Shown: positions 8,838 through 43,482 of the stretch, piece by piece | How positions within the stretch are numbered: position 1 is the stretch's first letter | How the letters are laid out: each line of letters begins with the position of its first letter | Origin: Patescibacteria group bacterium | GTDB lineage: Bacteria > Patescibacteriota > Patescibacteriia > Patescibacteriales > Patescibacteriaceae | Direction: 5' to 3' | DNA length: 64,000 nt | Assembly (NCBI GenBank): GCA_028704945.1 | Contig: JAQWEL010000002.1 | Location: 1 to 64,000, forward strand | Made by a program: the position numbers and the translations under genes | Notes under the pieces: generated by a model | What the model saw: the letters and a program-made list of their open reading frames with translations, nothing else | The model's database searches: none | What the model was told of the DNA's origin: nothing

Positions 8838-8887
8838 ACGAATAATTCGTAAGATTGTTATTTTACAATATATATTAGGAGTTTATC

Positions 8888-12464: not shown

Positions 12465-13688
12465 ATGACTTCAAAGAAAAAAGCCGTAACGGTGCTCGCG
12501 AGATTGGCGTTACTCACTTCTTTTCTTGTCCACACCGGATTTTTTAGTCATTTGATGGAAGTTGCTTCTAAACCAAGAGAACACACGCCAGAACAAATGA
12601 CAGAAATATCCGCCTTTATCCAGGCGAAGATTGATAAAGAACAATTGAACCAGGAATATAAGGCAGAAAATTACTTCAACGATTATTATGAAGTTGAAGA
12701 GAAATTCGGGTTTGTCAATTCAATGTTAATTGGCAGGTTGCAGGGTATGGCTCAGGAAAATTCGACTACAGAAGAAATGTCGACAGTTGCTAAAAAATTT
12801 AAAGAAAAGATCGAAGCGAAAATTTCGCATCGGGACGAATTTATGGCAAATGTTCGTGATCTGAGATTGGTAGGAATTCTGACGTGGTTGGCGAATGCGT
12901 ATTTATATTTATTGCCATGGTTTTTTGTGTTATTTGTTATTTGGGCGATTGAAGGTTCGGATAATAAAAAAACATTTTTCAGGCACCCGTTGGGATTTAC
13001 AGTTAGTATTATTGTTTATCCGGCTATAGCAATCTATGTGTTGGTAAAATGGATGATATTAACAGAAAGAAAAGTGTTGGTAGCAACTGAATTAAGAAGG
13101 ACGAAAGAAAATATTTTTTGCGCCTTTTCTGAAGATGAAGTTGCGAAGATTAAGAAGATTACCCAAGGTTCGTTGTCGGCAAGTAACTGGCGTAAATCGT
13201 TGGGTATCGAAGGAAAAAAGAATTACCACGCATTTTCTGCGGCGATGACAGTTGTCGTTTTGTTAATGATTGTCAGTAAACCATTATTATTGGAAGCGGA
13301 AAATTATTCTACGTCCAAGACGATGCTGACTAATCAATCAACTAAGTCGACGATAAATATTTTGCCTACCACATCCCCACCAGCCAATTTTCATGATAAT
13401 GACAGCTCGGTATGGTGGGAAAAAATAACCGATTTTGTGTCGGCAGTGTCATTAACAATTGAATGGTATCGAGAAATAATCAGTCAGTTGTATATCAAAA
13501 TTGTTGCTCGATGTTTAGACGGCTTTGTTATGGAAATTGAACATATTCCTGATACGTTAACCTTTACTTGGTTAACTAACAGAAATTATCAATTTAAAAT
13601 AATAAGGAGTATTAATAATGTCTATAACAAAGAAAACAATCGTCAGATTAATAGCAGTAAGTATTCTGCTTTTATCTTCAACTATTAA
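12465..13688 (+). CDS. Large membrane protein, unknown function
   Basis: 407 residues. It has an N-terminal helix (VLARLALLTSFLVHTGFF), then a charged helical extracellular or coiled region (about 35-135). Two strong helices follow (LTWLANAYLYLLPWFFVLFV, HPLGFTVSIIVYPAIAIYVL), and a further span at AAMTVVVLLMIVSKPLLL precedes a Ser/Thr-rich stretch. ATG 12465 follows AGAGAGG. Its 3' end overlaps the next gene by 71 bases in another frame, so the last 20 or so residues may be a run-on. No family recognised. It probably forms a two-gene unit with the downstream exported protein. Confidence 0.65.
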   Translation: MTSKKKAVTVLARLALLTSFLVHTGFFSHLMEVASKPREHTPEQMTEISAFIQAKIDKEQLNQEYKAENYFNDYYEVEEKFGFVNSMLIGRLQGMAQENSTTEEMSTVAKKFKEKIEAKISHRDEFMANVRDLRLVGILTWLANAYLYLLPWFFVLFVIWAIEGSDNKKTFFRHPLGFTVSIIVYPAIAIYVLVKWMILTERKVLVATELRRTKENIFCAFSEDEVAKIKKITQGSLSASNWRKSLGIEGKKNYHAFSAAMTVVVLLMIVSKPLLLEAENYSTSKTMLTNQSTKSTINILPTTSPPANFHDNDSSVWWEKITDFVSAVSLTIEWYREIISQLYIKIVARCLDGFVMEIEHIPDTLTFTWLTNRNYQFKIIRSINNVYNKENNRQINSSKYSAFIFNY

Positions 13689-29542: not shown

Positions 29543-31051
29543 ATGTTTTTGAAAAATAATTTTAAAAAAATTAACCCAGCTAAAACTAAAGGTTTTACTT
29601 TGATAGAGATGTTGATAATAATAGCAATTATCGGTGTTTTAGCGACTATCGCTTCAATCAGCATGAAAAGCGCTCGGTCTAAGGCGATGGATGTTAAAAA
29701 AGTTAGTGATATAAGAGTGCTCCAGTCAGGTTTGGAAATGTATAAGCTTGATGAAGATCAGTATCCGACAAACATTCAAGCTAATTGGGGGAAGCCATTA
29801 GTTGGTCCGACTTCGGGTAAGACGTATATGATTTTACCTAAGCAATTGACTGGGAATTCTTATGGCGATTATTGTAAAGGTATTGATTCTATCTATGATT
29901 ATTCGTCTGCCAGTAGCAATACTTATACTGTTAAATATTGTTTAGATAATCCGATGAATAGTTGCGCTCCAGGACCGAAAACGGCCATACCTAATTTGAT
30001 TATGAACTGTGAGGCAACGCCGGCTTCGACTTGTGTTTCTTCTTGTCTCGGCAAGTGTAGCGGAGAACTTGATAATTGCGGGACAACTGTCTGTCCAGCG
30101 CCGACAGTACCCGATGTCTCAGGTTTAACAGCAAATCCTTCAAGTGGCCAATTAGCTATTGGTTGGACGGCTGTTGCTGGAGCCTCTAGTTATGATGTTT
30201 GCGTAAAGACTGTCGCTTCTGGCAATTGCGCTAATGCTGATTTTTCAGCTACCAATAATTCAACTACTAATAGTTATGTTAAAACAGGTTTAACCAATGG
30301 CACCACATATAATGTAGCTGTCAGAGCAAGGCTGTGTTCTAACGCCACTATCGGAGCTAATCCTAATTCTCAAGTTACTGTTTCGTTAATTGTTCTTAAT
30401 GCTTGTAACGCTCCTACGCGCACCACAGAATGTAATGCAACTAATAATAAAGGTGACATTTGTGGTGGCGGACAGCTCTTTTGTAAAGGCGAAGCTAATT
30501 GCGGCGGCGCTAATTTAGTGGCCGCTCCATCAAATTGTACCGGAGCATTGACTTGCAATTGCGCTAATGATTCTTATTCTGCTGCCTGGAAAACATCTAA
30601 TACGGCCAACATTGGTGATTTTACGGCGACTAATCCTTATATTGGTTATCAGAATATAAATGGCAATGCTGAACAAACAGAGGTTAGTTATGTGGCTAGC
30701 TTAGACTATCCAGCCGCTAAATTTTGCGCTGACTTAAAGATTAATGGTTTTGACGATTGGTATTTGCCCAGCCAAGCTGAATTGTGCGCCATGATTAGAA
30801 GCGGTAATACTTGCAGTAGTTTAACTGCGTCAAATGTTTGCCAAGCTGGCATTAACCAAGCTGCTAGTAATTCTCCCTTGAATAGTTGTTCTAATGGCGC
30901 CCCCTTTGTCACCGGTTTAGGCGGTCCCGGCTACTGGTCTTCTAATGAGTATAGTGCTTTAAATGCTGTGGCTCAACAACCTACACAAGGTTATGTAGGT
31001 AACAGTAACAAAACTTCTCCTGGCTATGTCCGTTGTATTCGTAGATTTTAA
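29543..31051 (+). CDS. Prepilin with fibronectin III and DUF1566 domains
   Basis: 502 residues. Class III leader and helix (KGFTLIEMLIIIAIIGVLAT), pilin core, a short Cys-rich linker, a fibronectin type III module (about 190-285: GQLAIGWTAVAGASSYDVCV, TNGTTYNVAVRARLC), then a C-terminal DUF1566/Lcl-type domain. The last shows AAKFCADLKINGFDDWYLPS, PGYWSSNEY and SPGYVRCIRRF. Both added modules occur in surface proteins and suggest a ligand-binding pilus subunit. No clear SD. A bidirectional terminator follows. Confidence 0.87.
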   Translation: MFLKNNFKKINPAKTKGFTLIEMLIIIAIIGVLATIASISMKSARSKAMDVKKVSDIRVLQSGLEMYKLDEDQYPTNIQANWGKPLVGPTSGKTYMILPKQLTGNSYGDYCKGIDSIYDYSSASSNTYTVKYCLDNPMNSCAPGPKTAIPNLIMNCEATPASTCVSSCLGKCSGELDNCGTTVCPAPTVPDVSGLTANPSSGQLAIGWTAVAGASSYDVCVKTVASGNCANADFSATNNSTTNSYVKTGLTNGTTYNVAVRARLCSNATIGANPNSQVTVSLIVLNACNAPTRTTECNATNNKGDICGGGQLFCKGEANCGGANLVAAPSNCTGALTCNCANDSYSAAWKTSNTANIGDFTATNPYIGYQNINGNAEQTEVSYVASLDYPAAKFCADLKINGFDDWYLPSQAELCAMIRSGNTCSSLTASNVCQAGINQAASNSPLNSCSNGAPFVTGLGGPGYWSSNEYSALNAVAQQPTQGYVGNSNKTSPGYVRCIRRF

Positions 31052-31073: not shown

Positions 31074-31108
31074 AAAAACCCTTCAGCTTGATTAGTTAAA
31101 GGGTTTTT
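31074..31108. terminator. Bidirectional terminator
   Basis: AAAAACCCTT/AAGGGTTTTT, a 10-bp stem with T runs on both strands. It separates the plus-strand prepilin from the minus-strand ncRNA candidate. Confidence 0.85.
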
Positions 31109-31149
31109 GATTTATTTTGACTTTCGTAATTTGTTCGTTTACAATACAA

Positions 31150-31384
31150 TAAGAAAAGCCCATTATCTTATTTCGGGGCGTTCGAAAGTTAGGAGGGGTG
31201 CTTTCGAACTTAAACCGCCGAAACAAGACAATGAGCTTTTAATCACATCCATTTTACCGCCCACAAGTTAGCCAATGGGTAGGACAGATGGTCAAGGAGG
31301 GAGATCACCTGAGCCCGTGCCACAACTAACAAGCAAGCAGTAAAATAGATACGATTTTTTAATGTTAACATCTTCTTAAGTGTT
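31150..31384 (-). ncRNA. Candidate structured small RNA of about 235 nt with CCUCC loops
   Basis: The 425-base gap has no ORF. A minus-strand promoter lies at 31391-31418. The transcript would begin with a domain closed by TTACTGC/GCGGTAA and end in a 23-bp stem (31154-31176 with 31218-31240). Its three irregular pairs are all G-U on the minus strand but A-C on the plus strand, which fixes the strand. Above it a 9-bp stem GTTCGAAAG/CTTTCGAAC presents a 12-nt loop CACCCCTCCTAA. A second CTCCCTCCTT lies in the 5' domain. Both resemble anti-Shine-Dalgarno sequence. Not recognised as 6S, SRP, RNase P or tmRNA. Confidence 0.6.
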
Positions 31385-31390
31385 CAAAAT

Positions 31391-31418
31391 ATCTTAGCAA
31401 TTTAAAATAATTTGTCAA
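31391..31418 (-). promoter_or_regulatory. Promoter of the 31.2-kb RNA candidate
   Basis: Minus-strand TTGACA, 16-base spacer, TAAGAT. Predicted start near 31384, reading away from the divergent 31.5-kb gene. Confidence 0.65.
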
Positions 31419-31476: not shown

Positions 31477-31947
31477 ATGGATTCATTGTCACACATATTA
31501 TTAAATAATCTTATCTATAAGGATGTTCCAATGGAATCACGAGTTTGGGCAATCGTTTTGGGCGCCATTCCGGATTTATTTGGTTTTTCTTCAATGTTTA
31601 ATACAGAAGATTTAAAAAGAGCTTTGTTTTTTAAAAAAATGCCGCAATCAATGATTCCAAAAAAAGCCATTTTAACTTACAGGTTATCTCATAGTTTAGT
31701 TTTGTGGATGATTATTTTTTTATTTTTATATTTTTTAAATTATAAGTGGGCGGCTATGATTTGGTGCGGTTGGGCTCTTCACATTTTGACTGACGTCTTC
31801 ACTCATTCAAGTCGTTCAGCCTTAGCCCCTAGAATTTTTTGGCCATTATCGGACTGGTGTTTTGCCGGATTCAATTGGAGTCAGAAAAAATTTTTAATTT
31901 TTAGCTATTCATTGTTTGCGATACTGTATTTTATTTTTTATTTTTAA
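31477..31947 (+). CDS. YdjM-like membrane-bound metal-dependent hydrolase
   Basis: 156-residue polytopic protein with conserved polar residues of the YdjM/DUF457 membrane hydrolase group: MDSLSH (His 6), AIVLGAIPDLFGF (Asp), YRLSHSLVLW (His) and CGWALHILTDVFTHSS (His/Asp/His). These probably ligate metal near the membrane. Helices fill the rest. Substrate unknown. It is 24 bases upstream of ruvB on the same strand, with no SD. Confidence 0.75.
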   Translation: MDSLSHILLNNLIYKDVPMESRVWAIVLGAIPDLFGFSSMFNTEDLKRALFFKKMPQSMIPKKAILTYRLSHSLVLWMIIFLFLYFLNYKWAAMIWCGWALHILTDVFTHSSRSALAPRIFWPLSDWCFAGFNWSQKKFLIFSYSLFAILYFIFYF

Positions 31948-40271: not shown

Positions 40272-43297
<3,026 letters not shown>

Positions 43298-43364
43298 ACA
43301 CTCTTGTCTTTGATAGACATTTAAGATTATTTTCAATTGTGAAATATAAGAAAAGACATCATAA

Positions 43365-43482
43365 TTCTGGTGGTTCTTCCGGAGAGGTCACACCCGATCC
43401 CATCTCGAACTCGGAAGTTAAGCTCTCCATGGCCAATGATACTTGGGCCTGTGCCCTGGGAAAGTAGGTAGCCGCCGGAATT
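43365..43482 (+). rRNA. rrf: 5S ribosomal RNA
   Basis: About 118 nt with helix I TTCTGGTGG/CCGCCGGAA, the conserved CCCGATCCCATCTCGAACTC segment and GAAGTTAAGCTC. It follows 23S by about 65 bases; a T run after the closing stem could end transcription. Ends are approximate by a few bases. Confidence 0.95.

Follow-up and report, generated by a model that had tools for sequence, protein, structure and literature searches.

Does an interval without an open reading frame, roughly in the middle of this stretch of DNA, encode an RNA on the minus strand, and what would such an RNA do with two exposed loops that resemble the anti-Shine-Dalgarno (anti-SD) end of 16S rRNA? We addressed both questions in the window, by which we mean the whole analysed stretch of 64,000 nt from a Patescibacteria group bacterium. 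The initial annotation had proposed a minus-strand RNA that targets Shine-Dalgarno (SD) sequences and so could regulate accessory genes selectively.

A structured RNA predicted on the minus strand

The minus strand of the interval (Table 1) folded with a minimum free energy (MFE) of −98.3 kcal/mol, compared with −52.4 ± 4.6 kcal/mol for dinucleotide shuffles (z = −10.05; none of 200 shuffles was as stable), whereas the plus strand reached −61.6 kcal/mol (z = −2.85). This strand asymmetry arises from G-U pairs of the minus strand. A 23-nt inverted repeat (31154–31176 and 31218–31240) has three mismatches when read as DNA (87% identity), and all three become G-U pairs in the predicted minus-strand fold, as had been proposed for the irregular positions of the stem. 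The whole fold consists of two rods in tandem. The loops of hairpin 1, with CUCCCUCCUUG, and hairpin 2, with CACCCCUCCUAA, were both unpaired in the MFE fold, in agreement with the claim that CCUCC-type motifs are presented in loops. What had been described as a 5′ domain with CCCTCC does expose that motif, but it proves to be another rod, the longer of the two, which has a base stem of 24 bp and more G-U pairs. No minus-strand ORF of at least 50 aa was found in the interval, which fits the description of an ORF-free unit.

Table 1. Predicted RNA gene, its promoter and its flanking genes in the window.
Feature	Position	Strand	Basis or remarks
Predicted structured RNA	31150..31384	−	Fold and alignment; both ends predicted
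Hairpin 1: long rod, 24-bp base stem, inner stems closing the apical loop	31241..31356	−	Fold, covariation
Anti-SD motif CCUCC in hairpin-1 loop (CUCCCUCCUUG)	31296..31300	−	Invariant among members
Hairpin 2: 23-bp stem with three G-U pairs, then inner stem	31154..31240	−	Fold, inverted repeat, alignment
CCUCC in hairpin-2 loop (CACCCCUCCUAAC)	31192..31196	−	Fold, alignment with G001
Sigma-70-type promoter	31391..31418	−	−35 TTGACA at 31413–31418, 16-nt spacer, extended −10 TG.TAAGAT at 31391–31396
Divergent neighbour, 156-aa YdjM / Zn-dependent phospholipase C-like membrane protein	31477..31947	+	E 2e-4, below curated cut-off; flank only
Convergent neighbour, pilin-like protein with N-methylation motif and Lcl_C domain	29543..31051	+	Flank only

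The promoter that had been proposed before the RNA was recovered as TTGACA-16-TAAGAT with an extended −10, and it is kept in the homologue from the same genus (genome G001). A scan of up to 130 nt upstream of hairpin loci (score at least 10 of 13, n = 45) placed a promoter in the orientation of the RNA at 35 of the 45 homologous loci and on the opposite strand at four, compared with 13% in shuffles. The RNA is predicted to start about 7 nt past the −10 and to end near 31150, or to run on as far as a convergent terminator near 31078–31110. The transcription unit had been taken to close with a terminal hairpin; the hairpin is present, but a good U-tract is absent 3′ of it, so the position of the 3′ end is uncertain.

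Homologues, modular architecture and genomic setting

Plain BLAST returned one diverged homologue, in G001, upstream of the same 156-aa gene that flanks the RNA in the window, and nothing beyond the genus. A second match, in genome G012, fell within a coding sequence and was dismissed as chance. Between the window and G001, the promoter (TTGACAAATT...TTGCTAAGATATT) and the loops (CCCUCCUU; CCCUCCUAA) are conserved, two hairpins and both CCUCC loops are kept, and 13 of the 66 consensus pairs have changed on both sides in a compensatory way. A hairpin-1 covariance model built from these two sequences only (R1) matched 18 of the 111 genomes of the order. Rebuilt from 18 sequences, the hairpin-1 model (R2) matched 52 of the 111; beyond the order, it matched nine genomes of the same class and a single one from outside that class. 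A strict DNA pattern had no match over the genome contigs; a looser one found eight loci, in Candidatus Falkowbacteria and other Patescibacteria MAGs.

The 18-member alignment of hairpin 1 showed two-sided changes at 25 of 34 stem pairs, 92.8% of cells paired, and a covariation of 0.61 compared with 0.30 in shuffles. None of 500 shuffles reached any of the five measures, and slid-partner controls gave far lower values. CCUCCUU was invariant in the loop of all 18 aligned members. Each of the 45 loci had CCUCC in the hairpin-1 loop, and almost every MFE fold left it unpaired. This count is partly selection, as the models were trained on CCUCC-bearing loops; the 18 sequences behind R2 came from a two-sequence model scoring mostly on stems. 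Covariation, the conserved promoter, wide homology and a fold signal confined to the minus strand thus bear out an RNA on that strand, and the interval is almost certainly a real minus-strand RNA gene, predicted to give a stand-alone structured RNA of ~235 nt. Mobile elements can give long, near-perfect inverted repeats, and the structure could in principle be a repeat, the remnant of such an element or a product of chance. Such a non-functional origin is hardly credible given covariation over dozens of genomes, the conserved position and promoter, one locus per genome (a single copy in the window's own genome) and the lack of matches in viral contigs.

Many genomes carry, 3′ of hairpin 1, a second element with a CCCUCCU loop. 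Outside the window's family, hairpin 2 is in most genomes a three-way junction that bears a loop of the same kind, and this form showed two-sided changes at 18 of 22 pairs, reached by none of 500 shuffles. Its covariance model (R3) matched 48 of the 111 genomes of the order, 14 of them without an R2 match, so that hairpin 1, hairpin 2 or both were detected in 66 of the 111 with covariance models, the kind of search suggested by the initial annotation. Several R3-only genomes have a sigma-70 promoter directly before hairpin 2 and no hairpin 1, whereas other orders of the class have hairpin 1 without hairpin 2, followed by a U-tract, and a second small hairpin at the junction. The predicted architecture is modular, with either hairpin on its own or the two together, and a promoter, a rigid hairpin and an exposed CCUCC appear in all three versions.

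Where hairpin 2 is a three-way junction, its closing stem contains a near-invariant UAGGAG that is complementary to the CUCCU loops (for example, L123:1690–1800), and this complementarity could possibly serve an intramolecular switch or a dimer. It also favours an RNA that acts as a sponge or scaffold, its CCUCC loops pairing with another small RNA or with its own UAGGAG through CUCCU(A/U), and with mRNA SDs secondary. We regard this as quite unlikely, as UAGGAG is paired in the consensus fold, the window's hairpin 2 lacks it, and single-hairpin versions exist.

The family has a mostly fixed position. By keyword match, a divergent dprA lies upstream of the RNA at 34 of 45 loci, and downstream, where readable, there is often a convergent pth and then der; examples were confirmed with Pfam. 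The single locus outside the class (genome G772, L257) also has the order dprA - RNA - pth - der, with a CCCTCC-loop hairpin weakly scored by the model, and this shared order speaks for common descent and against a chance resemblance. The predicted family may extend over a large part of the phylum. Within the window's family, the RNA no longer sits beside dprA, which in the window's own genome lies at C9:106698. As SDs are rare in dprA leaders, which usually lack one, dprA was disfavoured as a local target.

The conserved dprA - RNA - pth order at many loci and the U-tract after hairpin 1 in other orders could also indicate a cis element, or a terminator or attenuator of the neighbours (dprA, pth or the YdjM-like gene), rather than an RNA acting in trans. 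We consider this very unlikely. Both usual neighbours lie on the strand opposite the RNA, which is therefore not their leader, and the RNA has its own promoter and remained conserved where it had moved beside other genes in the window's family.

At least one covariance-model negative, that of genome G019, is a false negative, with a diverged copy sitting in the dprA-pth spacer, and we rejected the assumption that every such negative is a true absence. Two genomes, G058 and G102, have an intact dprA-pth spacer from which the RNA is gone, so its loss there is real. Ten of 20 queried genomes lacked a DprA match (E 1e-10), and the same ten lacked a detectable RNA; loss of the RNA may therefore partly be loss of the locus.

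Shine-Dalgarno use and the proposed role of the loops

The 16S rRNA tail of the window's own genome, GGATCACCTCCTTTCT, has the core CCUCCUU, the same letters as the RNA loop, complementary to AAGGAGG. The window holds 23S and 5S rRNA at 40273–43480 (contig C9) and contig C8 has the sole match to 16S, so that the rRNA genes are unlinked. In one genus of the window's family (g3; G003, L191, and G007, L188), the 16S tail reads GGATTATCTCC instead of GGATCACCTCC; judged by these letters its anti-SD is degenerate, and the models detected no RNA in either genome.

SDs are scarce in the window's own genome, where 6-nt SDs precede 2.3% of genes compared with 0.7% at a control offset, and 5-nt motifs 7.2% compared with 2.2%, a small excess. 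Clear SD leaders before ATG are likewise rare in the window, at 8880 (AGGAGT), 13604 (AAGGAGT), 14923 (AAGGAGT) and 46245 (GGGAGGG). Of the strong leaders named in the initial annotation, those at 8.88, 14.9 and 46.2 kb stood, with GGAG or GGAGGG before ATG, and the one at 43.6 kb did not, having only AAAGGAAC. The accompanying idea that strong SDs are limited to accessory genes fared similarly: SD-led genes are indeed scarce, but hydrophobic N-termini, taken as a proxy for accessory genes, were not enriched among them. The genes at 13618 and 14935, both with clear SD leaders, matched no Pfam family.

Across genomes, the RNA co-occurred with SD use. In a post hoc comparison of 24 phylogenetically related and non-independent genomes (16 with and 8 without the RNA), with crude start calls, 6–60 genes for most genomes and G019 moved to the RNA-bearing group, the SD excess differed (p = 0.003). 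Its mean for 5-nt motifs was +8.2 points with the RNA and −3.9 without, and 6-nt SDs preceded 38 of 488 genes in RNA-bearing genomes compared with 2 of 245 in those lacking it. Within families holding both states, the association gave p = 0.04. Three RNA-bearing genomes (G001, G020 and G019) had no SD excess in the sampled stretches. In predicted pairing, the loop-SD duplex reached about −11.8 kcal/mol. The 16S tail gave −12.3, and a leader without an SD about 0. A shuffled loop formed a duplex with one SD leader nearly as stable as that of the real loop (−8.9 and −9.1), which makes the energies only suggestive for short SDs.

Taken as a whole, these observations are probably best explained by a trans-acting anti-SD RNA, made from its own promoter, that would serve as a class-selective repressor of translation. 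Its rigid hairpins would present CCUCCU(U) loops for pairing in trans with the GGAGG-type SDs of mRNAs. The loops and the 16S tail have the 7-nt core CCUCCUU in common, so the loops could vie with the 30S subunit for the small number of mRNAs led by an SD, block 30S binding and repress translation. The SD-less majority of genes would be spared, and the repressor would thus be selective for the SD-led class. We judge action by SD pairing to be reasonably likely, and the RNA probably silences genes by masking the sites at which ribosomes bind. Support for the targeting of SDs that had been suggested is indirect, coming from the invariant CCUCC loop as the shared unit of three architectures and from the co-occurrence of the RNA with SD use. 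A wider idea, possible but doubtful, is that a deeply conserved, ribosome-independent anti-SD RNA acts in Patescibacteria as a global repressor selective for the SD-led class, balances SD-led against SD-less translation, is kept only for as long as a lineage uses SD-anti-SD initiation and lost with it, and is ancestral to at least two classes of the phylum.

The likeness to the 16S tail could also be read in terms of protein binding. A protein that normally binds the 16S 3′ tail (Era, for example, or an assembly or initiation factor) might recognise the CCUCC loops, and the RNA would then mimic the tail and titrate or store that protein. The loop does hold the CCUCCUU core of the tail, an invariant unpaired loop on a rigid rod would suit a protein as well, and pth and der, with roles in translation and ribosome biogenesis, are frequent neighbours. 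We nevertheless consider this unlikely. Only CCUCCU(U) is conserved in the loops, and not GAUCA, which comes just before it in the 16S tail and is part of the known Era site; the association with SD use also favours pairing with mRNA.

Regulatory RNAs of Patescibacteria are almost unknown so far, and none with anti-SD loops was described in the literature searched. If an anti-SD repressor is the correct reading, a lineage with a reduced genome and mostly SD-less genes would use the presence of an SD as a regulatory address label, and gain and loss of the RNA would be tied to the decay of SD-dependent initiation, including the genus with a degenerate 16S anti-SD. Its strong covariation, defined promoter and mostly fixed dprA-pth locus make the RNA traceable in existing metatranscriptomes.

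Relation to known RNAs

The window and 17 homologous loci were searched against Rfam release 15 (4227 families), at the gathering cut-off, and the interval also up to E = 10. At the cut-off only tRNA and rRNA matched; below it, the best matches in the interval were unrelated families (E 0.7–10). The strong match to a known family that had been named beforehand as refuting the proposal was thus searched for and not found. A literature search, with subscription literature and preprints outside its scope, did not find this RNA described. The putative RNA belongs to an undescribed family of Patescibacteria (Falkowbacteria and relatives), a large group that is uncultured and has reduced genomes.

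Comparison with 6S RNA (RF00013), as had been advised, gave no model match in the interval or in the window's own genome. The two share a long, rod-like form and the look of a stand-alone housekeeping RNA. Together with the small junction hairpin in other orders and the absence of a recognised 6S RNA in the window's own genome, this would suit a 6S-like RNA that binds RNA polymerase and acts on transcription. Such a role is highly improbable, as hairpin 1 is a nearly continuous rod lacking the large single-stranded central bubble, the invariant part is instead the CCUCC loop at the apex, and hairpin 2, the sole hairpin in some genomes, folds differently.

A conserved CCUCC-type motif exposed in a structured RNA is the feature of anti-SD-loop sRNAs; here the motif was present at 45 of 45 loci and almost always unpaired in the MFE fold. 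In the Rhizobiales, NfeR1/alpha-r14 has three hairpins, each with an unpaired CCUCCUCCC, and represses by pairing to SDs (PMC10746234). The likeness extends to several hairpins with an ultraconserved unpaired CCUCC-type anti-SD motif on varying stems, and, by prediction here, to a single-gene locus with its own promoter (PMC10746234). However, those are short hairpins in alphaproteobacteria, whereas the rods here measure 85–140 nt, occur in Patescibacteria and are unrelated in sequence and fold. No Rfam match of that kind was found up to E = 10, and CCUCCUCCC is not present; the loops here read NCCUCCU(U/A/G), with only CCUCC(U) in common. The targets of alpha-r14/NfeR1 are known, whereas for the Patescibacteria RNA the SD-led mRNAs are predicted targets.

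In Xanthomonas, sX13 uses C-rich loops to repress mRNAs that carry a G-rich motif close to their start codon, and Hfq is not needed (PMC3771888). Stable stems with C-rich apical loops are common to sX13, S. aureus RNAIII and the RNA described here, but the loops of sX13 and other C-rich-loop sRNAs are CCCC or CCCCC rather than CCUCC(U), and phylum, fold and locus (polA) differ. NmsR/NgncR of Neisseria repress by SD pairing through two anti-SD sequences in single-stranded or loop regions (PMC5362039). Two exposed anti-SD sequences are shared with the window RNA, but NmsR/NgncR are two sibling sRNAs of three short stem-loops, compared with one RNA with one or two rods. The best explanation is that the predicted RNA works like NfeR1/alpha-r14, sX13 and NmsR but is unrelated to them, given the lack of any sequence or model match, the other folds and the other phylum. 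The RNA family is new, and its proposed mechanism is a variant of regulation by anti-SD-loop sRNAs.
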